DNA from: Faecalibacillus intestinalis
GTDB lineage: Bacteria; Bacillota_I; Bacilli_A; Erysipelotrichales; Coprobacillaceae
Reading direction: 5' to 3'
Length of the DNA stretch: 46,091 bases
NCBI RefSeq assembly: GCF_003024685.1
Contig: NZ_PYLQ01000021.1
Span: forward strand, 1 to 46,091
This document shows positions 5,018 to 45,892 of this stretch, one piece after another (positions within the stretch are counted from its first letter, which is position 1; the number at the start of each line of letters is the position of its first letter). Below the pieces are notes generated by a model. The model was not told the origin of the DNA. It ran no database searches and saw only the letters and a program-made list of their open reading frames with translations. The position numbers were made by a program, and so were the translations under genes.

Positions 5018-5030
5018 GTAATAAATAAAT

Positions 5031-5106: not shown

Positions 5107-5118
5107 AATTTTTATAAA

Positions 5119-5195: not shown

Positions 5196-5202
5196 AAAAA
5201 AA

Positions 5203-5279
5203 TGGCGCGCTAGGCAGGAATCGAACCCACAACCTCTTGATCCGTAGTCAAGCACTCTATCCAGTTGAGCTACTAGCGC
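5203..5279 (-). tRNA. tRNA-Arg (ACG)
   Basis: 77 nt with CCA. Acceptor GCGCTAG pairs with CTAGCGC; anticodon loop CTACGGA gives ACG, whose A34 would be deaminated to inosine by TadA. Confidence 0.95.
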
Positions 5280-5290
5280 ATTTTCACAAA

Positions 5291-5365
5291 TGGAGGTTCC
5301 TACCGGACTCGAACCGATGATGACAGAGTTGCAGTCTGTTGCCTTACCAACTTGGCCAAGGAACC
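5291..5365 (-). tRNA. tRNA-Cys (GCA)
   Basis: 75 nt with CCA. Acceptor GGTTCCT pairs with AGGAACC; anticodon loop CTGCAAC gives GCA. First gene of the operon, about 27 bases from the predicted transcription start. Confidence 0.95.
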
Positions 5366-29303: not shown

Positions 29304-29398
29304 CTCATTTCTTTATTATTGTACATCAGCTTTCTATTTATGACAAACTTCCTTTGAATATGATATAATAAATGATGAATAAGCAAAGGGGGCATTTT

Positions 29399-30325
29399 AT
29401 GAAAATAAAAAAATTATTTATTTTTTTTATTTCTACAATTACATGTCTTTTTTGTATTACCGGCTGTTCAAACAATGATTCAAAAAAGGAATCAAAAAAA
29501 TTACGTGATTCATCTCCACAATTATATTTACCTTCTACCGACTATCAAGTTACTTATCAAGAAAATAACGTAAGTGTTGATGCATCACATACATCTTCAG
29601 GATATATTATGGTTAATTATAGTGGACATAATGAAAAAGTTAAAATACAAGTAACCTCTCCTGATCAAAATAATTATACATATCCTGTTACGTATTTAAA
29701 TCAATTTGTTACATATCCTTTACCAAGAGGAAATGGTACTTATAAAATAACTGTTTTAGAATCCGTTGATCCGACTAAAAATCTCTATGCAACTTGTTTT
29801 ACACAACAAATAGATGTCTCTTTAGAAAACGAGTATCTACCATTTCTTTATTCTAATTATTATATTTCATTTAATAAAGATTCTCTTTGTGTCAAAAAAG
29901 CACGACAACTCGCTAAAAAATGCTACTCATCTTTAGATGTTGTTTCAAATGTTTATAATTACATTATCAAAAATATAAAATATAATAAAGAAAAAGCAAA
30001 TAATGTACAGTATGGTTATGTTCCTGATCCTGATCAAACATTAAATGATAAAACAGGTATTTGTTTCGACTATGCCTCTTTAACTTGTGCGATGCTTAGG
30101 TCTCAAGGAATTCCTACAAAACTCGAAGTAGGTTATGTTGGTGAAGTTTATCATGCCTGGATCAGTTGTTATGTAGACGAAACTGGTTGGATAGACAATA
30201 TTATTGAATTTGATGGCAAAGACTGGTCTTTATTAGACCCAACTTTAGGAGCGAATAATAAAAGTAAAGATGTAAAAAAATATATCGGTGATGGCAGTAA
30301 ATATATAGTAAAATATACATATTAG
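29399..30325 (+). CDS. Lipoprotein with transglutaminase-like domain
   Basis: 308 residues from the ATG at 29399 with AAAGGGGG upstream. A type II signal peptide ends in the lipobox CITGC, so it is anchored outside the membrane. The C-terminal transglutaminase core shows the triad: Cys in GICFDYASLTCAMLRSQGIP (about 221), His in YHAWISCYV (about 250) and Asp in WSLLDPTLGA (about 280). Such domains act as proteases, cross-linkers or peptide-binding modules. It is the first gene of the pilus-like operon (15 bp before pilC), which suggests processing or cross-linking of the pilin-like proteins; that is inference. A TATAAT lies at 29364-29369. Confidence 0.88.
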   Translation: MKIKKLFIFFISTITCLFCITGCSNNDSKKESKKLRDSSPQLYLPSTDYQVTYQENNVSVDASHTSSGYIMVNYSGHNEKVKIQVTSPDQNNYTYPVTYLNQFVTYPLPRGNGTYKITVLESVDPTKNLYATCFTQQIDVSLENEYLPFLYSNYYISFNKDSLCVKKARQLAKKCYSSLDVVSNVYNYIIKNIKYNKEKANNVQYGYVPDPDQTLNDKTGICFDYASLTCAMLRSQGIPTKLEVGYVGEVYHAWISCYVDETGWIDNIIEFDGKDWSLLDPTLGANNKSKDVKKYIGDGSKYIVKYTY

Positions 30326-30339
30326 AGGGGATGATATTT

Positions 30340-31386
30340 ATGAATAAAAAGAATGAAGTACTTACAAATTTAGAATTATCTAGCTTTTGTAAACAAATGT
30401 CTATGATTTTAAAAGCTGGTATTTCACCAATAGAAGGTATTTCTATGATGATAGAAGATAGTCAAAATAAAAATGAAAAACAGCTTTTAGAAAAAATCTA
30501 TGAAGATTTAACAATGACATCTTCACTTGCTATATCTTTAAAGAAAACATCTGTTTTTCCTAATTATATGATCCAGATGCTAGAAATCGGTGAAGAAACA
30601 GGAAGAAATGATGAAGTTATGGATGCATTGTCTCATCATTATCAAAGAGAAGAAATGATTTTACAAAGTATAAAGAATGCTATTACTTATCCAATGATCA
30701 TGATTTTGATGATGGTTGTCATTATTGTTATTTTAATGACAAAAGTAATGCCTATTTTTAATCAAGTTTTTCAACAATTAGGTCATGAGATGACTGGATT
30801 ATCTAAAGGAGTTCTTTTACTTGGAAATACTTTATCTAAGTATGCTGCTGTTTTTATTATTATTTTATTAATTGTAATTGGTTTTATCTTTTATTTATTA
30901 CACAATAAAAATGGAAAAGAAAAATTTAAAACTATTTTCTATCATTTTAAAGGTATAAAAAATTTATTTCATAAAATATATGCTTGTCGTTTAGCTGGAG
31001 GAATGTCTCTTTCTTTAAAAAGTGGGCTCCCTTTTGATCGTTGTATCGAATTATCTAAAGAACTTGTTTATGACAAACATTTTCAAAAAGAAATCAATGA
31101 TTGCCAAAATCTTTTAGATAAAGGATCGAGTCTAGCAAAATCTTTTCATGATAGTCATATTTTTACTGGTGTTCAATCTAGAATGTTGAATATTGCTGAA
31201 AAAGCCGGTCAAGTAGATTCTATTATGGATGATATTGCTGATCAATTAGAAGATGAAATTGATGAAAAAATAAGCTCGTATATTAATATTTTAGAACCAA
31301 CACTTGTTATTATCCTTTCTATTATTGTTGGAGTTATCTTATTATCTGTCATGTTGCCACTTTTAGGAATTATGTCAAATATATAG
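30340..31386 (+). CDS. PilC/GspF-type inner-membrane platform protein
   Basis: 348 residues from the ATG at 30340 (AGAGGGG at proper spacing). Two repeated GspF cytoplasmic domains and three membrane helices (about 105-130, 170-190, 320-345) are visible. The family blocks FPNYMIQMLEIGEETGRNDEVM and LPPLDRC-like LPFDRCIELSK are present, the former ending the first domain. It anchors the ATPase to the membrane and transfers motion to the growing or shrinking fibre. Confidence 0.92.
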   Translation: MNKKNEVLTNLELSSFCKQMSMILKAGISPIEGISMMIEDSQNKNEKQLLEKIYEDLTMTSSLAISLKKTSVFPNYMIQMLEIGEETGRNDEVMDALSHHYQREEMILQSIKNAITYPMIMILMMVVIIVILMTKVMPIFNQVFQQLGHEMTGLSKGVLLLGNTLSKYAAVFIIILLIVIGFIFYLLHNKNGKEKFKTIFYHFKGIKNLFHKIYACRLAGGMSLSLKSGLPFDRCIELSKELVYDKHFQKEINDCQNLLDKGSSLAKSFHDSHIFTGVQSRMLNIAEKAGQVDSIMDDIADQLEDEIDEKISSYINILEPTLVIILSIIVGVILLSVMLPLLGIMSNI

Positions 31387-31399
31387 GGAGGTACTTTTT

Positions 31400-31735
31400 A
31401 TGAGATTCACAAATCAAAAAAGAAATCATCCTTTTAAAAATATTGTTATTTCTGTCATTATTTTTTTAAGTGTTGCTGGTCTATTTAATTATGGTGTTCA
31501 ATCCATGTCTAAACAATCTATAGATGAACAACAAACCAATTTAGAAACAGCAATTGAAAGATGCGTTAGTCAGTATTATGTTCTTGTTGGTCACTATCCA
31601 GAAAGTTTAAATATTTTAGAAAAAGAATACGGTTTAACTTATAATAAGAAAATCTTTTTTGTAGATTATCAAGTGCTCGGTGAAAATATTGCTCCTGATA
31701 TCGTTGTCATCAGGAAGGAGGGTGCATATGAATAA
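31400..31735 (+). CDS. Pilin-like protein with N-terminal anchor
   Basis: 111 residues, AGGGAGG before the ATG. A single N-terminal membrane helix (IVISVIIFLSVAGLFNYG) is followed by a soluble region with CVSQYYVLVGHYPESLNIL, the pattern seen after the helix in GspG-like pseudopilins. There is no G-FxxxE prepilin cleavage motif. Its 3' end overlaps the next gene by 8 bp. Confidence 0.65.
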   Translation: MRFTNQKRNHPFKNIVISVIIFLSVAGLFNYGVQSMSKQSIDEQQTNLETAIERCVSQYYVLVGHYPESLNILEKEYGLTYNKKIFFVDYQVLGENIAPDIVVIRKEGAYE

Positions 31736-32198
31736 AAATAAACATGTAATTGATATGATTTTTCCAATTGCTTTATTCTTTGTTTTTATCAGTAGTTGTT
31801 TTATTGTTTTAATTCTTTCTTTTCATACGTATAGAAAGACCGTTCAATTAGAACAAAGTAATTATCAAACACGCACTGCTCTATCCTATATTACTCAAAA
31901 AATACATCAAAATGATTTGATAGACAGTGTTTCATTACAACAAATTGATCAAAAAGATGTTTTGGTATTAAAGTCATCTTATAGTCAAGGCAAATATACA
32001 ACTTATCTTTATGAAGATAAGGGGTATTTAAAAGAGTTATTTATTTCTAATCAACTTGAATTTGATAAAGATGATGGTAAAAAAATAATTCCTGTATCAC
32101 ATTTAAAAATGCAACAAATCAATCCTTATTTATACCATTTTTCATGTATTGTAGATCATAAAGAAATTAATACAAATGTTGCAATCCAATCAAAATAA
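31728..32198 (+). CDS. Pilin-like protein (DUF4860-like), N-terminal anchor
   Basis: 156 residues from the ATG at 31728, which has AGGAGGG; the frame itself opens at 31680. N-terminal helix FPIALFFVFISSCFIVLILS, then a soluble C-terminal domain (beta-rich by pattern). It resembles the minor pseudopilins encoded in Bacillota type IV pilus-like operons. No canonical cleavage motif. Confidence 0.65.
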   Translation: MNKNKHVIDMIFPIALFFVFISSCFIVLILSFHTYRKTVQLEQSNYQTRTALSYITQKIHQNDLIDSVSLQQIDQKDVLVLKSSYSQGKYTTYLYEDKGYLKELFISNQLEFDKDDGKKIIPVSHLKMQQINPYLYHFSCIVDHKEINTNVAIQSK

Positions 32199-32210
32199 AG
32201 GAGGTCTAAA

Positions 32211-32612
32211 ATGAAAAATATTAATAGACAAACACATATTTTTATTTTCGAATTAGTAATTGCCATTGCTTTTTTTGCTTTAGCATCAAGTATATGTGTT
32301 CAATTTTTCGTTAAAGCCCATTCTTTATCTAAAGAAACAAATGATATCAATATTTCTATGAATTTAGCAACAGGCTATGTAGAAGAATTTTTAAATGATC
32401 CTACAATTTATCAAGTTAATCAAGAATATATTCATTATTATGATGAAAACTGGAAAAATTGTCATAAAAAGAATTCAACTTATTTTATTAAAATTTATTG
32501 TAGTGATAAAGACTCAATAGAAACAATTCATGTAAGAGTCTATCATTACCACAAAAAGATTTATTCTATTACAAGTGATCAATATATAAAGGAGGATAAC
32601 CATGAATCATAA
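32211..32612 (+). CDS. Type IV prepilin-like protein
   Basis: 133 residues, AAGGAGG before the ATG. The N-terminus FIFELVIAIAFFALASSI is the best prepilin-like helix in the operon, with the Glu at the +5-like position, but the Gly before the cleavage site is missing (His-Ile in its place). It has Cys residues in the soluble part (WKNCHKK, IYCSDK). It overlaps the next gene by 11 bp. Confidence 0.65.
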   Translation: MKNINRQTHIFIFELVIAIAFFALASSICVQFFVKAHSLSKETNDINISMNLATGYVEEFLNDPTIYQVNQEYIHYYDENWKNCHKKNSTYFIKIYCSDKDSIETIHVRVYHYHKKIYSITSDQYIKEDNHES

Positions 32613-33039
32613 AAAATCTTTTCCAATTATTAATATGGGAACTTCTTTATTACTTGTTGTTTTTATTGTTATTTGTTTAATTGTTTTTGCAACACTTTCT
32701 CTGTCTAGTTCTCTAAGAGATCAAAAATATACAGATAAAGCTGTTTTAAAAACTGAAAATTATTATTTAGCTTATTCTCATGCACAAAAACAATTAAAAG
32801 AAATTGATCAAGCAATCATTAGCCATAAAGATTTATCTTCTCTTAAAAATATAGAAATTTCTTTAAAAGATAATAATACTTACATTTCATTTAAAGAAAA
32901 CATTGATCAATATCAAGATTTAGATGTTGAAATTCAATTAACTCAAAATCAAGACAGATATAAAATTATTAAATGGCAAGCAGTAACTTCCAAAGAATGG
33001 AAAAATGAAAGTACACTTCCTCTTTTAGGAAGTGAATAG
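32602..33039 (+). CDS. Pilin-like protein, N-terminal anchor
   Basis: 145 residues, AAAGGAGG before the ATG. A short positively charged N-terminus leads to the helix MGTSLLLVVFIVICLIVFAT and then a soluble helical region (ENYYLAYSHAQKQLKEIDQ). Such proteins accompany PilC and PilT in related operons; function in the fibre or as assembly factor is unknown. Confidence 0.62.
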   Translation: MNHKKSFPIINMGTSLLLVVFIVICLIVFATLSLSSSLRDQKYTDKAVLKTENYYLAYSHAQKQLKEIDQAIISHKDLSSLKNIEISLKDNNTYISFKENIDQYQDLDVEIQLTQNQDRYKIIKWQAVTSKEWKNESTLPLLGSE

Positions 33040-33048
33040 GAGAGTATT

Positions 33049-34104
33049 ATGAATATTGTAAATTTATTAAAAAAAGCTGTCGAAGCACATGCTTCAGATA
33101 TATTTATTGTCGCTGGTTTGCCTATCTCTTATCGTGCAAATGGTTCTATTCATCATGAAAATGAAGAAAAACTTATGCCACCTCAAACAAAAAAATATCT
33201 AGAAGAAATATATGAACTTGCTGGCAATAGAGATATTAATATTCTAGAAGAAAAAGGTGATGATGATTTTTCCTTTGCATTACCAGGAATTTCACGTTTT
33301 CGTGTAAGTTCCTATAAGCAAAGAGGTGCCTTATCTGCTGTTGTAAGAATCATCACTTTCGATTTACCACAACCTGAACTTATAGGTATTCCTCAACAAA
33401 TTATTGATTTTTCTAAATTGTCTAAAGGTCTTGTGTTAATTACTGGACCTGCAGGAAGTGGTAAATCAACAACACTTGCTTGTATTATTAATGAAATTAA
33501 CAAAACACAAGAAAAACATATTATTACACTAGAAGATCCTATTGAATTTTTACATAGACATCAAAAAAGCATTGTAAGTCAAAGAGAAGTAAAAGTTGAT
33601 ACTAAAAGCTATGTAGTCGCATTACGTGCTTCACTACGACAAAGTCCTGACGTTATTTTACTAGGAGAAATGCGAGATTATGAAACAATAGATGTAACTA
33701 TGACAGCAGCAGAAACCGGTCATCTTGTTTTTTCTACCTTACATACAATTGGTGCAGCTAACACAATAGATCGTATTATTGATGTTTTTCCAGCAAGCCA
33801 ACAAAGACAAATTGCTGTACAACTCTCAATGGTATTACAGGCCATTGTTACTCAACAACTCGTTCCTGATATTAATGGAGAACTGATTCCTGTCTTTGAA
33901 ATTATGACAGTCACACCTGCAATTCGTAATATGATTAGAGATCATAAAATACCTCAAATTGATGGTATCCTTTATGCATCTAATAAACCTGATATGATTT
34001 CAACTGATATGAGTTTACTCAATCTCTATAAAGAAGGAAAAATCACAAAAGAAACTGCATTGAACTACGCTACAAATGAAGAAATGTTAAAAAAGAAATT
34101 GTAA
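33049..34104 (+). CDS. PilT-family secretion/retraction ATPase
   Basis: 351 residues. An N-terminal PAS-like domain begins AVEAHASDIFIVAGLPISYR; the Walker A loop is GPAGSGKSTT (about 132-141); the Asp and His boxes follow; Walker B is VILLGEMRDYETID (about 203-216). AIRNMIRDHKIPQ near residue 290 is the AIRNLIRE-type motif that marks PilT retraction motors as opposed to PilB. It is the last gene of the operon and the only motor in it. Confidence 0.92.
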   Translation: MNIVNLLKKAVEAHASDIFIVAGLPISYRANGSIHHENEEKLMPPQTKKYLEEIYELAGNRDINILEEKGDDDFSFALPGISRFRVSSYKQRGALSAVVRIITFDLPQPELIGIPQQIIDFSKLSKGLVLITGPAGSGKSTTLACIINEINKTQEKHIITLEDPIEFLHRHQKSIVSQREVKVDTKSYVVALRASLRQSPDVILLGEMRDYETIDVTMTAAETGHLVFSTLHTIGAANTIDRIIDVFPASQQRQIAVQLSMVLQAIVTQQLVPDINGELIPVFEIMTVTPAIRNMIRDHKIPQIDGILYASNKPDMISTDMSLLNLYKEGKITKETALNYATNEEMLKKKL

Positions 34105-34652: not shown

Positions 34653-34680
34653 CAAAAAAAGAAGTCCCTTAGGACTTCTT
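34653..34680 (-). terminator. Terminator at the end of the surface locus
   Basis: Minus strand AAGAAGTCC / GGACTTCTT with T7, 5 bases after the sipW stop codon. It is the Rpn-element hairpin, seen also at 20842-20868. Confidence 0.85.
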
Positions 34681-34684
34681 AAGA

Positions 34685-35203
34685 CTATTTTTTAAATTCT
34701 ACTTTGTGTAACAAACTTCCTAAAATTTCTAATAATAGAATAAATGCTATTAAACAAAATAAAGCAATTTTACCACTAGCTGTTGTCAAAGATTGTGCAA
34801 TACCACCAATGATAGGAATTGATAAAACGACTTTACCCATATAATTATTATAATTTACAGAGTTCATATCTTTTGTTTGATTTGCATCTCCTTTTGTAAT
34901 AAATTCACCAGAAAGTTTTTTATTCGTAACAACTCTATGTGTCACTATAGAAGAGGCATCTTTAGCACCATAAAATGCAATAACATCTTTTTTTTGAATT
35001 GTTTCAGGTTCTTGATACTTTACATAAACAAGACTACCTACAGGAATTGCAGGTTCCATACTACCACTAATGACAGTATAAATATTATATCCAAATGCTT
35101 TAGGAACAGTTAATGGTATACACCCTAATATTAAAACAATTAATAAAATAGTACCCAGCAAGCTACATACTGTAGCTACTGGGTTCTTTTTCTTTTGTGA
35201 CAT
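34685..35203 (-). CDS. sipW: SipW-type signal peptidase I
   Basis: 172 residues with an N-terminal helix and a C-terminal helix. The catalytic Ser is in VISGSMEPAIPVGSLVYV (about 48), and the general base is His in SIVTHRV, not Lys, as in the ER/archaeal-type peptidases to which SipW belongs. FITKGDANQTKD is the third conserved box. It would cleave the special signal peptides of TasA/CalY-like proteins; two candidate substrates are encoded upstream in the same operon. Its ATG overlaps the preceding stop codon by one base. Confidence 0.92.
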   Translation of the reverse strand: MSQKKKNPVATVCSLLGTILLIVLILGCIPLTVPKAFGYNIYTVISGSMEPAIPVGSLVYVKYQEPETIQKKDVIAFYGAKDASSIVTHRVVTNKKLSGEFITKGDANQTKDMNSVNYNNYMGKVVLSIPIIGGIAQSLTTASGKIALFCLIAFILLLEILGSLLHKVEFKK

Positions 35204-36066
35204 TAAACTCTTTTCTTTCTAATTGTCATAAATGCTACAATAATTCCTACAATTGCTGCAAGCGAGATTGCTATACCTGCATAAATTGGTGTTGAACTAT
35301 TTTTTTCATTATTAACTGAAATATTAGATTTTGGTGTATCTTCATCATCTAAATCAACTAAACCTTGTGGAACATCTTCATCTTCAGCTGTTGTCGTATC
35401 CCCATCATTATTTTGTGTTCCGCCTGTTGCATTTCCTGTTCCATTATTACCTTGATTTGCATTTGTTGAAGGTGTTGTTGAAATAACTGTTGTAACAATA
35501 TTTGTATTTTCTATTATTTCACCCGTTTCACCTGGTTTATAAGTAAATGTGAAGACATTTTCTTTCTCATTTTCAACAAGTGTTTTTGTAAGAGCATAGG
35601 CTTGAGGTATATAACTATCAATATATTTATAAGCTACAACCGGTTTATCTCCTACATTTCCATATAAAACGGTATCTTCAGATAATTGCTTACCATTTTC
35701 ATCTACATAACGTATCGTATAAGCAACCTGATTACCTTTTACTCCATAAACAACAACATAATCTAAATCACCATTAACTACAAAAGTTGCAGGATCCAAA
35801 TTATCAACACTATCATGCCCACTCAAACGAATACCTTTAACATAATATTTACTATCTTGAGGTAATTCTATTTGTGATAGATCTAAAGAAACCATTTGTC
35901 CTTTAGAAACATTTATACTCATTTCATTTTGACTATTAATTGTTCCTCGATTACCAGTATATAAAGTAACTTTATATCCATATGCACAGACTTGTGTATA
36001 AGCAAGAGAAAGGAAAACTGTCAAAGACATCATCATGATAAATAATTTTTTTAAACGCTTCATCAT
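35203..36066 (-). CDS. Membrane-anchored surface protein with MucBP-like domain
   Basis: 287 residues. Signal peptide at the N-terminus, a beta-rich region, a MucBP-like module (about 115-175, with YTIRYVDENGKQLSEDTV), a Thr/Asn/Gly-rich linker (about 190-235) and a C-terminal helix ending RKKRV. It lacks LPxTG, so it is probably held by the membrane helix itself. Two consecutive ATG codons (36066, 36063) are possible starts. It lies between the SipW substrates and sipW and may bind mucin glycans or help anchor the fibre; this is inference. Confidence 0.72.
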   Translation of the reverse strand: MMKRLKKLFIMMMSLTVFLSLAYTQVCAYGYKVTLYTGNRGTINSQNEMSINVSKGQMVSLDLSQIELPQDSKYYVKGIRLSGHDSVDNLDPATFVVNGDLDYVVVYGVKGNQVAYTIRYVDENGKQLSEDTVLYGNVGDKPVVAYKYIDSYIPQAYALTKTLVENEKENVFTFTYKPGETGEIIENTNIVTTVISTTPSTNANQGNNGTGNATGGTQNNDGDTTTAEDEDVPQGLVDLDDEDTPKSNISVNNEKNSSTPIYAGIAISLAAIVGIIVAFMTIRKKRV

Positions 36067-36804
36067 TTATTCTCCTTTCTTTTCATATTTTGATTTTTTC
36101 TTAAAGAAAATTGCAAGGATAATGAGTAACAAACCACTTACTAAACCTAACGCACAATACCATAAAATATTTGTACTATCTCCCGTTTTAACAGTAGAAT
36201 AAACATTTTTATGTTCTATTTTATTAACAGTTACTGCTGGATTAGAGACGTTTTCTACAGCGAAATTCATTTCCAATTGTGCCATTGTCGCTTGATAACT
36301 ATTCCCTTGTGTTTCTCCATCAACACTTAGTGTAAGTGTGACATACCCAACATCATTTTTAGCCAATCTTCCTAAATAGAAATAATCATCAAGACCTTTA
36401 ATTTCTTTTAACCCTTGTGATCTATCTCCTCCAACAGTAGAACTGTCATAAATTAAAGTTTCATTATTTTGACTATCTACATAAGCTAGACGATATTCAT
36501 AAGCACCATTAGTTGCCTTTGATCCATCTTCCAATGTTTTAATAATTTCATTTGTCATATACCAATCAGTATATTGACTATTTTTATTTTCGATTTTAAC
36601 TTTTAAAGTCGTTGAATCTCCAGGCTGAATATTACTTAATTCATCATTCATTTGATCTTTACCAAAATTAGTTGTCATTTGGCTACCATCAAATGAAACC
36701 TTCCAATGATCTTTTCCTACTAATTCTTTAGCTTGAACTGTTGAAAAAGTACCAACCATCATCATAAGTGCCATAGCAAGGCACAAAATTCTTTTTTTCA
36801 TCAT
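36067..36804 (-). CDS. Surface protein with signal peptide and C-terminal anchor
   Basis: 245 residues. N-terminal signal ILCLAMALMMMVGTFSTVQA, a beta-rich body (PGDSTTLKVKIENKNSQYTDWY is a typical Ig-like/TasA-partner strand pattern), and a C-terminal VKTGDSTNILWY motif followed by helix and KKKSKYEKKGE. The KTGD motif is a sorting-like signal variant; whether it is a sortase substrate is unknown. Cotranscribed with the SipW substrates. Confidence 0.7.
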   Translation of the reverse strand: MMKKRILCLAMALMMMVGTFSTVQAKELVGKDHWKVSFDGSQMTTNFGKDQMNDELSNIQPGDSTTLKVKIENKNSQYTDWYMTNEIIKTLEDGSKATNGAYEYRLAYVDSQNNETLIYDSSTVGGDRSQGLKEIKGLDDYFYLGRLAKNDVGYVTLTLSVDGETQGNSYQATMAQLEMNFAVENVSNPAVTVNKIEHKNVYSTVKTGDSTNILWYCALGLVSGLLLIILAIFFKKKSKYEKKGE

Positions 36805-36814
36805 CTGTACCCTC

Positions 36815-37555
36815 CTATCCTAAACTCAATTTAGTTTCATCGTCATTAACATTCACATCAATTCCCCAAGCACTCTTAATAGCATCTTTCGCATTATGAG
36901 TTTGTACTGCATCAACTTCTGCATCTAATGTAAATGTATATCCATTATAAGTATACTGATATTTAATTGTTTTTTTATCCTCTACTTTCGTATACATTGT
37001 TGACAATTGATTACTAATACGAATAGTTTTCATAAAATCCGGTGTTGTTTTCTTACTTTCAACTACCTTTGTATAATATAAAACAACACGTTCATCTGTT
37101 GATTGAGCCTCATTAATGACCCATCCATCTTGATTAAATCCTAATTCAATCAATGCTGGTGATAAATCAACATTTTTCCCTTCTTTATCTTGCCAACTCT
37201 TTGTTAAAACAACTCTTACAAAAGTATCAATATTACCACTGTTTTCTACAGCTAACTTTTCATCATAAGTTTTTCCTAAAGCAAACTTTTCATCATCTTT
37301 TAATAAATTTTGAAGAAGTTTACCTTCACCATTAGTTGTTGCATCTCCTTGATCATCATACGTCTTTGAACTAACAACCTTTCCATTTTCCTTTAAAGAA
37401 ACTCCAATTGTAGACATATCCATAGAAGCCGAATATTGATCACTATAATATGTGAGTGCTGCACGTGCACTTCCTACACCACTTCCAAGTAATAAAACAG
37501 CAGCTATACCAAGAAGGATTGTAGGTTTCATAAAAATTGATTTCACTTTTTTCAT
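36815..37555 (-). CDS. SipW-dependent TasA/CalY-like surface protein, 246 aa
   Basis: The ATG at 37555 has AGGAGG at the right distance; the frame also has an ATG at 37561 that is too close. The signal region KPTILLGIAAVLLLGSGVGSARAALTYYSD matches the SipW-dependent type (given here by its core LGIAAVLLLGSGVGSARAAL). The mature part is beta-rich, with GNIDTFVRVVLTKSW resembling the strand seen in CalY-like proteins. It would form or decorate an extracellular fibre. Confidence 0.75.
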   Translation of the reverse strand: MKKVKSIFMKPTILLGIAAVLLLGSGVGSARAALTYYSDQYSASMDMSTIGVSLKENGKVVSSKTYDDQGDATTNGEGKLLQNLLKDDEKFALGKTYDEKLAVENSGNIDTFVRVVLTKSWQDKEGKNVDLSPALIELGFNQDGWVINEAQSTDERVVLYYTKVVESKKTTPDFMKTIRISNQLSTMYTKVEDKKTIKYQYTYNGYTFTLDAEVDAVQTHNAKDAIKSAWGIDVNVNDDETKLSLG

Positions 37556-37567
37556 TACCATAACCTC

Positions 37568-38065
37568 CTACTCTGTTTCATAAACTTGTTGCCAATTAGC
37601 AATTAAGTTTCCTTGATCATCATAAACAACCGGTGTAAATTCTTGAATAACAACGATATTATAATCTTTATCCTTATTATCATCATTTACTTCAGGTAGT
37701 GTATATTTAATATTTAATTCACTTGTTTTATCTTTAGAAGAAAGCACTTTATTATAATAAATATACCCATCACCACTTTCTTGCCAATCTTCACCTAAAT
37801 TATATCTAATTTTAAGGTTATCCGCTGCAAAAACTTTAACTCTCACAAAACAATCATAATCACCAACATTAGTAATCACAACATGTTTTCCATCTTTATC
37901 AACATCTTCCTTAATCTTCGTATCTGTAAAACCTAAATCCATTTTATATCCACCAGTTGCATTCGTATGAGTCGTAAAATATCCCAAAGCCTTACCAATA
38001 CCTAAAGTAGAAATCATCACAAGAGCAACAATAGATAATACTAATTTTTTGTTAAATTTTCTCAT
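37568..38065 (-). CDS. SipW-dependent TasA/CalY-like protein, 165 aa
   Basis: The signal peptide LVLSIVALVMISTLGIGKAL leads to GYFTTHTNATGGY, a SipW-type cleavage context with the aromatic-Phe-Thr pattern. The mature part contains ITNVGDYDCFVRVKVFA, the strand typical of camelysin/TasA-like proteins. No C-terminal anchor. AGGAGG before the ATG. Its closest functional relative would be the biofilm fibre subunit TasA, cleaved by SipW. Confidence 0.78.
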   Translation of the reverse strand: MRKFNKKLVLSIVALVMISTLGIGKALGYFTTHTNATGGYKMDLGFTDTKIKEDVDKDGKHVVITNVGDYDCFVRVKVFAADNLKIRYNLGEDWQESGDGYIYYNKVLSSKDKTSELNIKYTLPEVNDDNKDKDYNIVVIQEFTPVVYDDQGNLIANWQQVYETE

Positions 38066-38077
38066 ATCTCTATCCTC

Positions 38078-39085
38078 CTACTCTTGAACTGTCTTATTTT
38101 CTTTACTTTGTTTAACTGTATAATCTTGATCTTCTTTTGAATATTTATAATTATTAACAATTCCATAACCACCATGAATTTCACTAGAAGCCTTATTTTC
38201 AAAAGTTGCACTAGCAATTCCTTGACTATCTTCATCTGCCACTAATGATTCCAAAACTTTTTTAGAATCACCAACAATTTCATAACCAGCTCCTGTATAA
38301 ACTTCCGTAACAGTTACTTTTGAACCTGCTGGAATATCAGCAATTCTAATTGTTTTCTCTTTTACTTCATCAAAATTTAAAGTAATAAATCTTGTTTCTT
38401 TTTGATTTTCAATTGTTTCAATATCAACTTGATAAACAAATGTTGCATTTGTTGTTAAAGTTGTATTTTGACTTGTTAATTTTTTAGTAATTTGAATAGA
38501 ACTCATTCTTAATTCTCGATCAGCTTTAATACCAATAGCTTTCGAACCAACTAAATCATAATACCATGTATCATCCTTTTTAGTTGTATAATAATAATTA
38601 TTTGGAAGAGAAACTAAATAAGGTGTAAACTTATAAGAATAATATTGACTATTCATATCATTAACAACAACTAAATAAAGTCCTGTTTGTAAATTTGTTA
38701 GCTTAACATATCCGCCTTTTAAAGTTGCTGTATAAGCTGGAGTAGCATCTTTAATAACTTTAGAAGCTTCACTTGCTCTTTGTTTCCAAGTCTTCGCTGA
38801 TTGAGTTGCATCATATTTAACAGTTGACCAATCAATGTCTTTAAATACATCTAAACCTGTATAATTGCCACCTTGGCTAATAGAAGCAACCTTATAAAGA
38901 TCCACCTGAACATCATTTTTCGATAAATCCTTAGCATAACTATGAGAGCTAATTGAAATTTCTAAACTACATTTTTTATTAACATCTACAGGTAATGCTG
39001 CTTCAACATTTGGTAAAACAACAACCGTAAACATCATTATCAACCCTATAAAGATAGCCGATAACTTACAAAATTTCTTTTTCAT
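38078..39085 (-). CDS. Pilin-like surface protein without sorting signal
   Basis: 335 residues from the ATG at 39085; the frame opens at 39121 inside the sortase gene, and AAGGAGG favours 39085 (or 39091). Signal peptide, then a SpaA-like pilin domain (VQVDLYKVASISQGG, later TNLQTGLYLVVVNDM) and a second beta domain with VTEVYTGAGYEI, an E-box-like strand. It ends TVKQSKENKTVQE with neither LPxTG nor a membrane helix, unlike the basal pilins expected here. It may be truncated or held by other subunits. Confidence 0.72.
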   Translation of the reverse strand: MKKKFCKLSAIFIGLIMMFTVVVLPNVEAALPVDVNKKCSLEISISSHSYAKDLSKNDVQVDLYKVASISQGGNYTGLDVFKDIDWSTVKYDATQSAKTWKQRASEASKVIKDATPAYTATLKGGYVKLTNLQTGLYLVVVNDMNSQYYSYKFTPYLVSLPNNYYYTTKKDDTWYYDLVGSKAIGIKADRELRMSSIQITKKLTSQNTTLTTNATFVYQVDIETIENQKETRFITLNFDEVKEKTIRIADIPAGSKVTVTEVYTGAGYEIVGDSKKVLESLVADEDSQGIASATFENKASSEIHGGYGIVNNYKYSKEDQDYTVKQSKENKTVQE

Positions 39086-39098
39086 CCTCATATCCTCC

Positions 39099-39956
39099 TT
39101 ATTTCTTTTTATTAAAAACATATCTCATTATAATAATAACAAGTATCGTAATTGATAAACCTAAAACTAAAATCAACATATAATAGTTTTTAATAGACTC
39201 TAACATTCTATCTCCAACAGATTGTTTAACATCTTCTTCACCATTATATTCAACACGATGTCCTCTTACAATTAAACGATGACTATTCACTCCATAAGGT
39301 GTACAAGTAAATAATGAAACATAATCTTGACCCTCAGTAATAGACAAAGCATTTTGTAAAGTTTGATGATCATCTTTATCAACCATTGGTAAAATTTGAT
39401 CTACTTCATAAGCTAAAACCTTATCTAAAATATGCAAATAAAATTTATCACCTGTTTGTAGTTGATCAATATCAGTAAACAATTCTGCACTAGGAAGACC
39501 TCTATGCGCTGCTAAAACACAATGTGTACTTTCACCTCCAATAGGAAGTTTAGACCCATTAATATGACCAACACCCGTTTGTAAAACATCATCACTTGTC
39601 CCATGATAAATAGCTAATTTAATATTGATTTCAGGAATAGAAATATATCCCATGATTCCATCATTATTCATATTTAAAACTCGATTATATTCACTATTTT
39701 CACTATCCTTGGACTTTTCACCAAACACATCAGCAAAAACATTATTCCCACTTATTGTTTCATTAAATGCTTGTGCATTTTGCCATTCTTGACTAAAGTC
39801 TTCATCAGACATATCATCAACTATTTTTTCATAATTACTAATCAATTTATTTTGTCGATAAGTATTCCATTGATTAGAAACAGTAGGATAAATCATAATA
39901 CCCAACCCAACTAAGAATAACAATCCAACCAAAATACTCGGTAATCTCTTTTTCAT
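39099..39956 (-). CDS. Class C (pilin-polymerising) sortase, second copy
   Basis: 285 residues with helices at both ends. The catalytic His is in HCVLAAHRGLPSAELF, the Cys in VSLFTCTPYGVNSHR (TLxTC-type, here LFTCTPYG), and the Arg in RLIVRGHR. A lid-like region with DPW-type residues is not obvious. It joins pilin subunits by isopeptide bonds. Its ribosome binding site lies inside the last codons of the preceding sortase gene. Confidence 0.93.
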   Translation of the reverse strand: MKKRLPSILVGLLFLVGLGIMIYPTVSNQWNTYRQNKLISNYEKIVDDMSDEDFSQEWQNAQAFNETISGNNVFADVFGEKSKDSENSEYNRVLNMNNDGIMGYISIPEINIKLAIYHGTSDDVLQTGVGHINGSKLPIGGESTHCVLAAHRGLPSAELFTDIDQLQTGDKFYLHILDKVLAYEVDQILPMVDKDDHQTLQNALSITEGQDYVSLFTCTPYGVNSHRLIVRGHRVEYNGEEDVKQSVGDRMLESIKNYYMLILVLGLSITILVIIIMRYVFNKKK

Positions 39957-39960
39957 ATAA

Positions 39961-40809
39961 CTACTCCTTAGATCTCATCTTTTTATCCTTTTTATATAAA
40001 ATAAAGATAAAACCACCAGTAACAGCTAAACCAACAATAACCCATAACAAATAATTCGTATGAAGACTTGTAAAACCATTTTTCTTTTCCTTATTTACAA
40101 CAGATTTGTTATAAGAAACACGATGACCTGTTACAATCAAACGTTGAGTATTCACACCATAAGGTGTACATGTAAGCAACGAAACTAAATCTTTTCCCTC
40201 TTGCACAGCCAAAGCTGATGTATCATCAGGTTCAGTTTCAACAATACTATCAACTTCATAACATAACGTTTTATTCAAAACATGGACCAAAAAGTGGTCT
40301 CCCTTTTTAACTTGATCCAAATCAGTAAATAATGTTGCACTTGGCAACCCCCTATGTGCAGAGATAACTGCATGCGTATCTTTACCCCCTATAGGTAAAG
40401 AACTTCCTTCCAAATGTCCAGCAGCCTTACTTAATACTTCTTCACTCGTTGTATGATAAATAGGTAACTTCACATCTATTTTAGGAATTTCAACAATACC
40501 CATTATTCCATCACCAGCAAGATTTAAAGCTGAAGTATATGACTTATCTTCTGACTTTTGATTTTCTGCTTTAATAAATGAATCCGGCAAAATATGTGGT
40601 GCTAAAGCATCATTATATGCCTTTGCTTTTTTCATTTCTGCATCATAATCTATTGAATCACTCTTTTGACTTACTATCTTTTCATAGTTACTGATTAAAC
40701 AATCATGTCTATAACTATTCCACTTATTGGCAACAAATGGATATACCAATAAGGACAAACCAGCAACGAATATCAAGATTATAACTATATTGCTTAACTT
40801 CTTTTTCAT
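39961..40809 (-). CDS. Class C (pilin-polymerising) sortase, first copy
   Basis: 282 residues, similar to the next gene throughout, indicating tandem duplication. Catalytic residues: His in HAVISAHRGLPSATLF, Cys in VSLLTCTPYGVNTQR and Arg in RLIVTGHR. N-terminal and C-terminal helices anchor it in the membrane. Two sortases suggest division of labour between polymerisation and incorporation of minor subunits or wall attachment. Confidence 0.94.
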   Translation of the reverse strand: MKKKLSNIVIILIFVAGLSLLVYPFVANKWNSYRHDCLISNYEKIVSQKSDSIDYDAEMKKAKAYNDALAPHILPDSFIKAENQKSEDKSYTSALNLAGDGIMGIVEIPKIDVKLPIYHTTSEEVLSKAAGHLEGSSLPIGGKDTHAVISAHRGLPSATLFTDLDQVKKGDHFLVHVLNKTLCYEVDSIVETEPDDTSALAVQEGKDLVSLLTCTPYGVNTQRLIVTGHRVSYNKSVVNKEKKNGFTSLHTNYLLWVIVGLAVTGGFIFILYKKDKKMRSKE

Positions 40810-40842
40810 CTGGACTCTCCTTATTCTTATATCATTTTAAGA

Positions 40843-40865
40843 ATCAGAGGCTAAAAGCCTCTGAT
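40843..40865 (-). promoter_or_regulatory. Stable hairpin between major pilin and sortase genes
   Basis: ATCAGAGGCT / AGCCTCTGAT form a perfect 10-bp stem with a three-base loop, 7 bases after the pilin stop codon. On the minus strand only a weak T-tract follows (TCTTAAAATG). It could be a partial terminator or an RNA stability element that keeps pilin mRNA more abundant than sortase mRNA. Confidence 0.75.
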
Positions 40866-40872
40866 AATTATT

Positions 40873-42279
40873 TTATTTTTCATGTTTCTTTTTATTCATA
40901 AAGAATAATGCAGCAGCTACAACCATAATTGCACATCCACCTACTGTAAAGATTGTAGTACCAATACCACCAGTTTCAGGTAGTGCACCTACTTCTGTAT
41001 CTCTCATATCTGTATCAGCAGTAAATTCTGCAGTTGCTTTATCACCACTAATTGTTAAAGTCGCGCTTGAATTAGTTTCATTAATAGAATATCCATCAGG
41101 AGCAGTAACTTCTTTAAATTGATATTCACCTTTATCTAAACCTTTAACTACTAATTGACCATTTGCACCAGTTACAACTTCAGTTACGACACCAGTTTGA
41201 TCTTTAGCTAATACATAAGTGTTATTACCTTTATCAACAAATTTAAGAACATTTCCATCTTTATCTAATACATTGAATCCTGCACCAGCTAATAATTTTT
41301 TATCACTTTCTTTTTCATAATCATTTGTTTTTGTTAAAGTAATTGCACCTTCATATAAATCTACAGAATCACTTGAATAATTTTCTGAACCTGTACGACT
41401 TACATTAGCCGTATTTCTTACTTTATCATTTTCAGAAGTTACCAATACATTATAAGTAATTGTAACATCTTTTCCAGCATTACTGTTTGTATCATCAATT
41501 AAAGATGATAAATCTAATTCAAATGAATTAGTTGCATCATCAAATGTAGGAGCAATATTTATTTCATTATCCCCTAATTTAACAACAACTGTATTTTTTT
41601 TGTATTCTGCACCTGTTAATGCATCAGTTACTTTAAATAACTTATTTTTTTTAGTTGGATCAATTGAAGGAACTTTTACATTAATTGTATAAGTCACTGT
41701 TTGACCATTGTGTACAGCACCATCTGCATCATTAACTGTTTTAGTTAATTTAGTTTCCGATCTTTTTACATTTAATTCAGCATTTTTTAATGTTGCTGGA
41801 TTATTAGCATATTCAAAATTAATTGGAGCAGCCATAACATTATAAGTATATTTATTTGAGTTATCTACAACTTTAACAACATATAACCCTGCACCATCTA
41901 CTTCTGTTTTTCTTTCACCGTTATTTGTAAATCCAGTAAATCCACTTAAGTTACCTAATCTAGCTAACGCTTTAGAATGAGCAGCACTATTAGCTAATGA
42001 AGCTAAAATAGCTTGATCAACAGCTTGATCATCAGTTTTTTCATCAGTTTTATTATACTCATCTCTAAAAATTTGAGCGACTGTTTCATCAACAAAAGCC
42101 CATCCTGTTTTTGTAGTTTTATCTTGTTTAACAACTTTTAAATAAGATAATGTTACATTTTCATCTGCAGCAATGTTTTTTACTGTAATTGTTGGATTAG
42201 CAGCAGCTACTGGTACCATCATTGCTAGTGCCATCAATAATGAAACCATCATTGCTGAAACTTTTTTAAATAATTTCAT
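40873..42279 (-). CDS. LPXTG-anchored major pilin (SpaA/SpaH type)
   Basis: 468 residues from the ATG at 42279 with AAGGGAG upstream. Signal peptide (about 1-27, LLMALAMMVPVAAA), an N-terminal pilin domain, a central isopeptide-type domain beginning NAELNVKRSETKLTKTVND and running to VTITYNVLVTSENDKVRNT, and a Cna_B-like domain with the E-box EYQFKEVTAPDGY. The sorting signal is ALPETGG at about 432, then a helix and NKKKHEK. The usual VYPKN pilin motif is not seen; the lysine in LNVKRSE is the likely cross-linking residue by position, which is inference. Confidence 0.9.
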   Translation of the reverse strand: MKLFKKVSAMMVSLLMALAMMVPVAAANPTITVKNIAADENVTLSYLKVVKQDKTTKTGWAFVDETVAQIFRDEYNKTDEKTDDQAVDQAILASLANSAAHSKALARLGNLSGFTGFTNNGERKTEVDGAGLYVVKVVDNSNKYTYNVMAAPINFEYANNPATLKNAELNVKRSETKLTKTVNDADGAVHNGQTVTYTINVKVPSIDPTKKNKLFKVTDALTGAEYKKNTVVVKLGDNEINIAPTFDDATNSFELDLSSLIDDTNSNAGKDVTITYNVLVTSENDKVRNTANVSRTGSENYSSDSVDLYEGAITLTKTNDYEKESDKKLLAGAGFNVLDKDGNVLKFVDKGNNTYVLAKDQTGVVTEVVTGANGQLVVKGLDKGEYQFKEVTAPDGYSINETNSSATLTISGDKATAEFTADTDMRDTEVGALPETGGIGTTIFTVGGCAIMVVAAALFFMNKKKHEK

Positions 42280-42334
42280 ATTCAATCTCCCTTTCTTTTT
42301 TATTTATATATAAGAGCTATGAATAAATAGTCTC

Positions 42335-45300
42335 CTATTTATTCATATACTCATTATACCTTTTTCTATATATAGCAACTGCTGCTACCATCATAAGCAA
42401 CATACCACCTGCCATATACCAATAAATTCCTGTTCCACCTGTTTCAGGTAAAGTATATTTCACATGTATTCTATAAATACCATATTCAGATTTATTCTTT
42501 TTACAATTTTCAAAATCAGTAACACATTCTTTGTCATTACCATTTTTACCATCGTTAATAGCATATCCTATATTAGATTCACTATTACCAACCTTATTTC
42601 CATTGGTATTTGTGTTACTTTCATCAGTAGCACTACCACCATCATATCCTACTTTTAAGAAGAAATCCGTTCTACCATCTGGTTTAACTTTAGAAATCTT
42701 ATCTTTCGTAGTTTCTGATGTACATTGATCATCAGTATACCATTGTATAGTTAAATCGCCTTTTGTAATTTTTTCAAATTCTTTCGTTGATTCAATGTAC
42801 TTATATACAACATTACCTTTACTATTAACAACATTTTCTATATCAAAGACTTTACTATTTCCAATATTAGTATCATCAACTGGAACTGTCTCACCACTAT
42901 TGATCCAAATATCATCATTACTGGTTGCAATATCAACTTTTACATTCACTTTAGGTTGAGGTAAAACAGCTTCACCAAAACCTGTCGTTATTTTTGAATC
43001 TGGACTTACGTTAGTTGGAACGTTATTACCACCTATATATTTGTCACGTGCTTTAACAGTTATTGTTGTGTTCCATTCACCAGTATTAACATTTGGAATC
43101 GTTTGGTCAGTCCATCTAATTGCTTGGGTATTATTAACTTCATCATAATACGCCATACCAACTTTGCCATTAGTTCCTGTAATTTCTATTTCACCTTGCT
43201 TAAGTTCATCATCTGTTATAACATTTCCATCATTACCTACTAGTTGGAAACGTGGATCAATTACATCAACAATATTAGCATTTTTAATATCAATATTTTG
43301 TGATATTGTTTGTTGAATTTTAGCAAAGATTACCTTTAATTCATCAACATTTGCTGCTGTAAAAGCACAATTTGTTGATGCAATATTTTCAGATAACCAA
43401 TTAGATGTTTCATCATTCAACTTTAATCCAACTGTATATACCGTTATACCCGATTCTCTTAATTGTCTTGCTATTTCTTTGGAATCATTTTTATCCGTGT
43501 CTTCAGAAGGTGCCCCATCTGTAAATAAAATAACATATTGAGGAACATCTGTACGTTTAGAATTAGCTAAATTAGTTTGTGCTATACTTAAGCCTTTTTG
43601 AGGAGACGTACCACCAGCTGCATAGATACTTGCAATTGTTTGTTTTAAGCTATTTTTATTATCTCTTGCATTTACTAGATTGCTTAAATTATTTCCATAA
43701 GCATTGAATGTTGCAACACCAATTCTACTATTTTCTGAGGATTCTGCTGTTGCTGAAATAAATGCTGAAGATGCTTCTTTTAATCCAGTTAATCCACTAT
43801 CCAATGTATAAATTGTTGTGTTGTTATCCCTTTTATTTCCATAATAACCTGAAATCTTATCTGGTACATTTACCCAACTACTTCCGTTATAATATTTCCA
43901 TGTATCATTTATATAAATCATTGGATATTTAGCGTTTTTATAAGTATATGAATTACCATTAGTATGCTTATATGAAACATTTGTTAATGTATTATCATAA
44001 TAATACACCTTATTAACATCTAAACTATTTTTTACATCACAGTATTTTCCAACAGCTCTAAATCCTCCCTTATCTGTAGGATTGTTACTATTCCCATTGT
44101 AAAGCATACTACCTGAAATATCTAAAACCATCATAATATCAGCTACTGCTTCTTTTTGAACTACGCTTGAACTTGTAGATAAAGATTTAGCAGTAATGTT
44201 AATATCATATGTTCTTTCATCCCAATCTTTTACTTTTGCAGTCTTGTCATATTGTAAAGAGTTTTCAATAATTTCTTGAACCTTTTTATTTTCAATTTTA
44301 TATTTACCATTTGTTTGTGCTACTTCTTGTTCTTGATCATCTTTAACCAAGTAGAGCTTTGCTACTGCATTATTATTGCTATCAACTGTAACTCTTACTT
44401 TCCATGTATCATCAGAAACTAAATAACCATCTGGAGCACTTACTTCTGTTAAGGTATAGGTACCTTCTTTTAAACCACTAAAAGTAATATTTCCATCACT
44501 AGTTGATTTAACTCTACTTGCTTCTTTTGTTGAATCATTTTCTAACTTAAATACTGCATCACTTAATCCATTTCCGTTTTCATCAACCTTTTGAAGATTC
44601 AAATCAGCTTTTGGCTTTTCTATAACATCAACAACTTTTGCATTTGGAAGAGTAAATTCCATTTGACAATTAGATTCTGCAGCGCCACGTTCCATATAAA
44701 GAATTGTTAATTTATGCGTTTGATTTTTTTGCTCTTCTGTTAAACTTCCAGGAGTTAAGCCTAATTTACTCCACAAATCAACACTATCTGTAGCTGCATC
44801 ATGAATTCCACCTAAATCAATAATGACATTGGTATTATCTAAAACCACCCACATATCATCATCACCGGTAAATTTATAAGTCAAATCACCGACATAATCA
44901 CCTATTGTGAATTCAACATCATATCTCATTCCAAAAAAGTAATTTGGTGTTCCTTCTGTAGAATAATCATTAAGTGGGAAGAAATTTGAACCACTTGTTG
45001 TCACTTCTTTATTATTTTGTGCTGTATCAATAACTGAAGTTAATTTATAAGTATCACCTGTTTTATGAAATTTCAAATTCATACTATCTATATAACGTCT
45101 AAGATAAGTTTCTTTTCCATTGATTGTTACTGTTTCATTACTCTTAACAAAGAATCCTGGTTCAGTATAATTAAATTTTACATTTCCATCACTATCTATA
45201 CCATTCAACAATCCTTTAATTACTTTGCTGCTTCCTGTATAAGCATTAACATCATAGTCATCTTTCATCAATTCATAAGAATATGTTTCATAATTGTTTC

Positions 45301-45892
45301 CTGTACCTAAATCACTTCTACTTTGATATTCAATATTTTGCCATCCATTCCAATAAACACCTTTCCATGAATTTCTAGATGTACCAGATGTCAATCTTTG
45401 ATTAGTATTATCTCCTAACATATTAAAAGAATAATATTTTCCATTTGATTCACCAGCTCTTACTGTGTAATCATAGAAAGAAGTATCTCCTAATACATCT
45501 GTTTCTTTGGCAGTGTAATTCACTACAACCGTTGCACTTCCAGTTCCTGTCAATTCAATATAATTTTTATTTGATACGGCATTTCCATCAACAGTTACAC
45601 TACTTACATCCCAATTTATTGCTTTAGCGTAATCGTTGATTTTTGATCCATAAGATAGAGTTTTCACATCATCTGAATAGATTTTTTTGCTTCCATTATA
45701 ATGTTGAATTGTAACTGTAATATCTTTTTTTTCGCTACTTTTATTTTCTATTACATAACTAGAAGCGGTTGATTGGGTTGTTGCACTTCCGTTTGTACCA
45801 CTTCTTTCATTAGCAGAGGCAATAATCGCACTACTAATAACTACCGCTATTGCTAGAACAAATAAACCAATTCTTCTCATACGTTTCAGCAT
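42335..45892 (-). CDS. LPXTG-anchored tip adhesin with fibro-slime, Cna_B and VWA domains
   Basis: 1185 residues. Signal peptide (about 1-27); a fibro-slime/PA14-like domain (about 150-420, with YKFTGDDDMWVVLDNTNVII); a SpaA/Cna_B module (about 425-535, with FKLENDSTKEAS and TYTLTEVSAPDGYL); a VWA domain (about 575-860) with MIDAS residues in MVLDISGSM, GGTSPQKGL and LFTDGAPSED; further beta modules; and LPETGG at 1148 followed by helix and basic tail. The arrangement equals RrgA-type pilus tip adhesins, which bind host matrix. First gene of the locus, GGGAGG before the ATG. Confidence 0.92.
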   Translation of the reverse strand: MLKRMRRIGLFVLAIAVVISSAIIASANERSGTNGSATTQSTASSYVIENKSSEKKDITVTIQHYNGSKKIYSDDVKTLSYGSKINDYAKAINWDVSSVTVDGNAVSNKNYIELTGTGSATVVVNYTAKETDVLGDTSFYDYTVRAGESNGKYYSFNMLGDNTNQRLTSGTSRNSWKGVYWNGWQNIEYQSRSDLGTGNNYETYSYELMKDDYDVNAYTGSSKVIKGLLNGIDSDGNVKFNYTEPGFFVKSNETVTINGKETYLRRYIDSMNLKFHKTGDTYKLTSVIDTAQNNKEVTTSGSNFFPLNDYSTEGTPNYFFGMRYDVEFTIGDYVGDLTYKFTGDDDMWVVLDNTNVIIDLGGIHDAATDSVDLWSKLGLTPGSLTEEQKNQTHKLTILYMERGAAESNCQMEFTLPNAKVVDVIEKPKADLNLQKVDENGNGLSDAVFKLENDSTKEASRVKSTSDGNITFSGLKEGTYTLTEVSAPDGYLVSDDTWKVRVTVDSNNNAVAKLYLVKDDQEQEVAQTNGKYKIENKKVQEIIENSLQYDKTAKVKDWDERTYDINITAKSLSTSSSVVQKEAVADIMMVLDISGSMLYNGNSNNPTDKGGFRAVGKYCDVKNSLDVNKVYYYDNTLTNVSYKHTNGNSYTYKNAKYPMIYINDTWKYYNGSSWVNVPDKISGYYGNKRDNNTTIYTLDSGLTGLKEASSAFISATAESSENSRIGVATFNAYGNNLSNLVNARDNKNSLKQTIASIYAAGGTSPQKGLSIAQTNLANSKRTDVPQYVILFTDGAPSEDTDKNDSKEIARQLRESGITVYTVGLKLNDETSNWLSENIASTNCAFTAANVDELKVIFAKIQQTISQNIDIKNANIVDVIDPRFQLVGNDGNVITDDELKQGEIEITGTNGKVGMAYYDEVNNTQAIRWTDQTIPNVNTGEWNTTITVKARDKYIGGNNVPTNVSPDSKITTGFGEAVLPQPKVNVKVDIATSNDDIWINSGETVPVDDTNIGNSKVFDIENVVNSKGNVVYKYIESTKEFEKITKGDLTIQWYTDDQCTSETTKDKISKVKPDGRTDFFLKVGYDGGSATDESNTNTNGNKVGNSESNIGYAINDGKNGNDKECVTDFENCKKNKSEYGIYRIHVKYTLPETGGTGIYWYMAGGMLLMMVAAVAIYRKRYNEYMNK

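Follow-up and report, generated by a model that had tools for sequence, protein, structure and literature searches.

How can a pilus be held to the cell wall if the protein at its base carries no sorting signal? This question is raised by a locus in the 46,091-nucleotide stretch of Faecalibacillus intestinalis DNA considered here (contig NZ_PYLQ01000021.1, positions 1 to 46,091; the window, below, means this whole stretch). A preliminary description made from the letters alone had noted ten same-strand genes with short gaps or overlaps, and these are indeed ten consecutive minus-strand open reading frames (ORFs) spanning 45892-34685. The family matches agree with its naming of a tip adhesin, a major pilin, two class C sortases, a pilin-like protein without a sorting signal, and SipW. 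In gene order, the products are the tip adhesin candidate, the shaft pilin, the two sortases, the signal-less pilin-like protein (P6), P5 and P4 with SipW-type signal peptides, the candidate wall anchor P3, the membrane protein P2, and the SipW signal peptidase (Table 1). The locus is real, conserved and composite. On balance, its sequence relations point to a single wall-moored sortase pilus, whose P6 base would be docked to SipW-exported P5/P4 and held to the wall via P3.

In the proposed assembly, the two class C sortases would build the shaft from the LPETG pilin, and the tip position would be taken by the VWA protein, which also has an LPETG signal. Elongation would end, as it does with a base pilin, when the last pilin is transferred to Lys199 of P6. 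The C-terminal CnaB domain and tail of P6 would then dock, probably non-covalently, to the SipW-exported, BsaA-like P5/P4, which would in turn be tethered to the wall by P3; P2 would be an accessory membrane protein. Strand complementation as the mode of docking is a guess by analogy with TasA fibres (PMC9674648, in part). The usual description of sortase pili has covalent bonds all the way from tip to wall; a signal-less base combined with a SipW module would, if true, change that picture and give SipW proteins a role outside biofilm fibres. No description of a sortase pilus with a SipW module was found in open-licence PubMed Central (PMC) full text.

Gene order and its conservation

The intergenic gaps from the tip gene to sipW are 49, 63, 4, -23, 12, 6, 10, 0 and -1 nt, and the eight genes from the first sortase gene to sipW are spaced by 12 nt or less. 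The -23 nt overlap between the genes for sortase 2 and P6 is smaller if the P6 start with a better ribosome site, near 39085-39091, is taken. The pilus portion is recognizable from the SpaA and VWA domains of the pilin and tip proteins, which score over their cut-offs, and from the LPETGG signals on both. The shaft pilin scores 74 bits against the SpaH/EbpB model, under the curated cut-off of 95; it has a candidate pilin lysine, picked by eye, in LNVKRSE (41755-41775) and an E-box-like EVTAPDGY (41089-41112).

Conservation was probed using the P4 alignment A8 (11 sequences) as a profile against one-genome-per-species bacterial and archaeal contigs, which returned 231 relatives. The named loci counted below are the best 80 of these by similarity to P4, a sample that leans to window-like loci. 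ORF calling relied on a simple script that takes the longest frame. Some of the labelled loci also supplied sequences to the in-house profiles, which inflates the E-values of these profiles. Redundancy was kept in the counts: L122 and L123 have identical P4, L097 and L099 look near-identical by gene lengths, and L117 is the same contig as L060.

The genes for P5, P4 and P3 occur in that order in 80/80 named loci, and P2 is present in 78/80. A class C sortase lies within six genes upstream in 75/80; three of the other five are at a contig edge, and the remaining two (L144 and L149) have a giant protein of about 1,610 residues instead. The preliminary description would have been refuted by a lack of linkage in relatives, and the linkage was found; the recurrent gene order is not chance. 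The relatives belong to Lachnospiraceae, Erysipelotrichales and Adlercreutzia (Actinomycetota), and because the linkage is kept across two phyla a single composite locus is strongly supported. The carriers are common gut commensals, and record titles among the 80 include Coprococcus comes, Eubacterium ramulus, several Blautia, Dorea, Roseburia and three Adlercreutzia. One locus is labelled Muribaculaceae (L097), with gene lengths equal to those of the Blautia-labelled L099, and is probably a mis-binned contig. No P4 relatives were found in viral contigs.

Closer to the window, a SipW over the TIGR02228 cut-off is found in 15/41 genomes of its family. The P3 profile matches 60/293 genomes of the order at E<=1e-6, part of the matches being limited to the sorting-signal region. 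Forty more neighbourhoods from the order show two main arrangements. One runs tip - pilin - sortase - P6 - P5 - P4 - P3 - P2 - SipW, and the other runs giant protein - P5 - P4 - P3 - P2 - SipW, with no sortase nearby.

P6 and its proposed docking domain

The protein at the junction of the pilus genes and the SipW module is P6. The profile built from 46 sequences (alignment A12) has SpaD (4hss, E 9.8e-6) and SpaA entries (E 5e-4 to 2e-3) among its matches, and the P6 stretch W.YDV.V.LK aligns on WNYNVVAYPK and WLQDVHVYPK, the pilin motif of SpaD/SpaA. The lysine of this motif is the acceptor of the sortase-activated pilin. Its counterpart in P6, Lys199, is invariant (11/11 sequences in a first alignment, 46/46 in A12), and because it falls on the SpaD/SpaA pilin-motif lysine, P6 should accept the pilus via this residue. 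The AlphaFold2 model of P6 (mean predicted local distance difference test score, pLDDT, of 87) begins with a pilin-like domain, continues with a CnaB-like one and ends in a tail modelled at low confidence. Its best Foldseek matches are streptococcal and corynebacterial pilins (streptococcal T-antigen pilins, GBS52, SpaA) at TM-scores of 0.2-0.3, values that are probably low due to hinged domains. In the CnaB domain, Lys213, Glu273 and Asn309 are invariant across the 46 sequences and form the Lys-Glu-Asn set of isopeptide domains. The Pfam families DUF5979 and DUF7601, matched by 45/46 and 35/46 P6 members, are listed as isopeptide families in the available part of PMC12617251, and the P6 domain is predicted to carry an isopeptide.

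P6 possesses the SpaA-type N domain and acceptor lysine of a canonical base pilin, but not the C-terminal sorting signal. According to passages of PMC7900414, the streptococcal base pilin ends polymerization and is joined to the wall by the housekeeping sortase via its own signal. The study locus therefore resembles class C sortase pili of the SpaA/SpaB, FctA/FctB and EbpC/EbpB types in its class C sortases, LPXTG shaft pilin, tip protein and base-type protein, but differs from them in the missing base signal and in the SipW module and separate VKTGD protein that follow. None of the proteins encoded upstream of P5 carries a sorting signal, either in the 80 named loci or in the 30 cases of the order set. 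Loose patterns flagged the upstream proteins of L057 and L061, where the letters are the tail motif and no membrane span follows.

The C-terminal half of P6 is shared with giant proteins. For 30 loci of the order set, the upstream neighbour of P5 (ending between -33 and +17 nt from it) was aligned, and all 30 proteins share this C-terminal region; 28 of them fit the strict tail pattern, and a 31st locus, L062, has no upstream ORF under the rule used. Among the named loci, the docking profile matches the C-terminal end of the protein before P5 in 79/80, and the strict tail pattern is found in 73/80 of these proteins versus 5/1010 other ORFs of >150 aa in the same loci. The profile of the P6 pilin N domain matches 88/88 short and 0/14 giant proteins, whereas that of the docking half matches 88/88 and 11/14. 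The three giants that miss it at E<1e-3 (L055, L061 and L066) group with the rest in the tail alignment. Nine of the 14 giant loci have <1.6 kb or nothing visible upstream, and the absence of a sortase is clear only in L042, L045, L061, L144 and L149. When 293 genomes of the order were searched, the docking profile matched 39 places in 30 genomes, 33 of them within 3 kb of a P3 match; two more (L168, L169) immediately precede P5 and P4 where the contig ends. In one genome (G242), one place precedes, in tandem, a further giant at the module, and a second is isolated (L170), about 10 kb from a SipW-type gene, the module being elsewhere in the genome; the matches in G241 and G244 are internal repeats without the tail.

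The simplest account is that P5-P4-P3 would supply the wall attachment, given that giant adhesins without a sorting signal have the P6-type C-terminal domain and lie next to this same module. A broader proposal, tentative and with the balance slightly against it, is that of a universal socket, a general route by which Gram-positive gut bacteria would display large surface structures. A SipW-exported, BsaA-like complex on sortase-anchored P3 would take any protein that ends in a DUF5979/DUF7601-type domain and a G-x-G-x-x-N-x-aromatic tail, be it the base of a pilus or a 1,000-4,000-residue adhesin. The plug may enter by strand complementation. If true, this proposal predicts which proteins use the socket, and giant adhesins without a sorting signal become testable for attachment. 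Four loci (L021, L023, L027 and L028) from genomes of the family have P4-P3 without a canonical P5, and in them VWA or other large proteins encoded close to SipW have a related tail at their end, such as SDxDIxxNxF or SDAAIAINKY, perhaps a second plug type.

SipW-exported proteins, wall anchoring and alternatives

P4 and P5 are similar to each other (hhalign probability 97), and P3 is weakly similar to both (82 and 84). SipW-type N-terminal letters after the hydrophobic stretch, sought by a loose pattern, are found in P5 at 79/80 and in P4 at 78/80 named loci. The SipW protein is the only TIGR02228 match over cut-off in the genome; it scores 85.6 of the 190 bits required by the Bacillus SipW equivalog NF046067. 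Its SGSMEP and THRVV segments, presumably the Ser and His motifs, look intact. The label of SipW/TasA-type genes given in the preliminary description holds for SipW and for the N-termini of P5 and P4, but the TasA and BsaA matches are sub-threshold. P4 and P5 score 30.3 and 13.8 bits, respectively, against the BsaA family TIGR04090 (cut-off 60 bits), with weak matches at E<=0.01 in 44/50 P4 and 40/53 P5 relatives.

TasA homology of P3, P4 and P5 was not established by structure-profile search, Pfam or comparison of the P3 fold. Against solved-structure profiles, TasA is the best match of P3 with alignment A7 (E 0.087; TasA matches at 0.09-0.13), and it is not among the 11 matches obtained with the larger alignment A9. 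In Pfam, PF12389 matches 4/50 P3 relatives, and P4 has no TasA match. The P3 model (mean pLDDT 80.7) is a beta-sandwich followed by a linker and a membrane helix, for which Foldseek returned no match at E<=0.001. In a fold comparison (VIA), TasA rows at Z 5.3-5.7 and two archaeal filament subunits stand amid unrelated folds at Z up to 6.7. The scores linking P3 to TasA are at chance level, and TasA is at most a possible relative of P3.

The signal peptidase homologue found in the pilus operon of SipA/LepA streptococcal islands offers a partial parallel. As described in the available part of PMC7900414, however, SipA/LepA is a type I homologue that lacks the conserved catalytic residues and has no exported BsaA-like partners, unlike the SipW-type peptidase of the study locus. 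At nine loci (L047, L048, L049, L097, L099, L101, L129, L130 and L132), a second signal-peptidase-like protein of 193-218 aa that matches the SipW profile is encoded upstream of the tip or pilin gene and may be a SipA/LepA-like chaperone.

The preliminary description counted two anchored proteins in the module. P3 has both the VKTGD signal (srtB_target, 19.2 bits over 18.15) and a membrane span, but P2 has a membrane span without a sorting motif. A TGD-type signal is detected by pattern in P3 at 66/80 named loci, unlike the LPxTGG-type signals of the nearby pilins and tip proteins, of which 68/96 are LPSTGG. A class B sortase is encoded in the genome (TIGR03064, 175.9 bits against a cut-off of 153.75) and probably serves the VKTGD of P3. 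Other VKTGD proteins are encoded in the same genome in a stretch without a sortase (L166). In 73/76 P2 proteins, a [TV]P[LQKMRE] motif lies just before the C-terminal membrane span (window 35323-35349), often with a repeated acidic D-x-x-T-P-L-A; it resembles a degenerate sorting signal but is without TG. P3 and P2 are apparently fused (533-558 aa) in L069, L071 and L072.

A second pilus island in the same genome (L164) allows a comparison. It encodes an LPETGG pilin, a class C sortase that is split over two frames (G000 C13, 17270-18119), and then a 242-aa candidate for a conventional base pilin, which is SpaH-type in its N region and carries a DVDVEPK motif as well as LKTGD as its sorting signal; a bacterial-type signal peptidase I and a 2579-aa protein are also present. 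Pilus acceptance and the wall signal would be split between P6 and P3 at the study locus, as opposed to residing in one protein at L164.

The principal alternative, rather unlikely, is that P5/P4 polymerize into a BsaA/TasA-like fibre rooted on P3, with the docking protein at its end or along it, so that the pilus would sit on a non-covalent stalk instead of a 1:1 mooring. The sipW-bsaABCRSD operon of C. perfringens and its adjacent srtB resemble the study locus in having SipW and BsaA-like exported proteins near a sortase gene, and passages of PMC7395162 report that BsaA forms sodium dodecyl sulfate-resistant filaments, that SipW is required for BsaA export and that the nearby sortase is not required for the polymers. 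The weak BsaA matches of most P4 and P5 relatives and the single profile in which TasA is the best match of P3 are consistent with such a fibre, and TasA fibres assemble through donor-strand exchange (PMC9674648, in the part available). The tapA-sipW-tasA operon of B. subtilis, described there, likewise has a dedicated SipW peptidase and an accessory protein with a presumed role in attaching TasA to the wall, but no sortase. P4 and P5 nevertheless fall under the BsaA cut-off, TasA homology does not reach significance, and nothing points directly to P4/P5 polymerization. The available part of PMC7395162 also describes no pilin or docking protein in C. perfringens, where srtB is dispensable for BsaA.

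That BsaA was unaffected by deletion of srtB (PMC7395162, in part) would also suit an improbable explanation, namely that the sortase pilus and the SipW-dependent matrix proteins are two separate structures, merely co-transcribed. Several genomes of the window's family have P4-P3-P2 and SipW together without a sortase or pilin nearby, and the in-house sortase profile detects no class C sortase in these neighbourhoods. Co-transcription alone, however, explains neither why the gene beside P5 keeps the same C-terminal domain in base pilins and giant adhesins alike nor why P6 lacks a wall signal. Capping or coating, proposed in the preliminary description along with basing, would make P6 a pilus cap or secreted chaperone and have P4/P5 coat the shaft. 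P6, being without a sorting signal, is addable at one end only. In sortase chemistry, however, a protein with an acceptor lysine and no sorting signal suits the base, where the chain is terminated, and not the tip (base role per passages of PMC7900414), and a coat would not need a docking domain that recurs on giants without a nearby sortase. This possibility appears very remote. Of the earlier proposal, the single composite locus is strongly supported and the basing role is favoured, the latter because P6 has an acceptor lysine without a wall signal and shares its C-terminal domain with giant adhesins at the same module; coating is disfavoured, and the TasA-type label is weak.

Several observations weigh against the single moored pilus. 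The SipW/BsaA filament of C. perfringens is independent of the neighbouring sortase (PMC7395162, in part), and P4/P5 may polymerize instead. P3 has no signal by pattern in 14/80 named loci. SipW is in range in 71/80, five of the other nine being at contig ends and four having none found (L105, L126, L130 and L142). At L102, the one locus in which the docking domain is internal, a membrane span follows it, and docking need not be the only means of retention. Finally, the exchange of base pilin for giant adhesin speaks for a common domain beside a common module and not for binding.

Feature coordinates and neighbouring genes

Table 1. Features of the locus in window coordinates.
Feature	Position	Strand	Remarks
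Tip adhesin candidate, 1185 aa	42335..45892	-	Fibro-slime, SpaA-type and VWA domains; LPETGG sorting signal at 42437-42451
Major (shaft) pilin, SpaH/EbpB-like	40873..42285	-	LPETGG at 40969-40983; likely start ATG at 42277-42279
Symmetric stem-loop between pilin and sortase genes	40843..40865	.	Reported on +; tail on - weaker
Class C sortase 1	39961..40809	-	276 bits, cut-off 160
Class C sortase 2	39099..39956	-	270 bits, cut-off 160
P6, base pilin candidate without sorting signal	38078..39121	-	SpaA/SpaD-type N domain; DUF5979 C-domain
P6 Lys199 codon	38525..38527	-	Aligned with SpaD/SpaA pilin-motif lysine
P6 C-terminal "docking" domain, CnaB type	38189..38503	-	Lys213, Glu273, Asn309 invariant; predicted isopeptide
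P6 C-terminal tail	38081..38188	-	GGYGIVNNY at 38147-38173; common to giant adhesins beside same module
P5	37568..38065	-	SipW-type signal peptide, BsaA-like; directly downstream of docking protein P6
P4	36815..37561	-	SipW-type signal peptide, BsaA-like; TIGR04090 30.3 bits (cut-off 60)
P3, candidate wall anchor	36067..36804	-	Signal peptide, beta-sandwich, VKTGD at 36178-36192, C-terminal membrane span
P2	35203..36066	-	Weak MucBP, C-terminal membrane span, conserved D/E-rich [TV]P[LQK] motif, no sorting signal
SipW-type signal peptidase I	34685..35203	-	TIGR02228 91.7 bits over 51.85
Terminator-like stem-loop after sipW	34659..34680	-	Downstream of the tenth gene

The stem between the pilin and sortase genes may be a partial terminator on the minus strand. 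A scan of the window for RNA elements found none upstream of the tip gene, its only matches being tRNAs elsewhere in the window; eight tRNA genes lie in a run at 4665-5365 (-).

A type IV filament-like cluster abuts the SipW locus at 29372-34104 (+), convergent with sipW, and encodes T2SSF, a T2SSE/PilT-like ATPase and DUF4860, with a transglutaminase-like protein in front. Similar clusters with a T2SSE ATPase also adjoin differently organized SipW modules in two other genomes of the family (L023 3156-7823; L029 12488-17017), and shared regulation or a hot spot for surface structures is possible at such sites.

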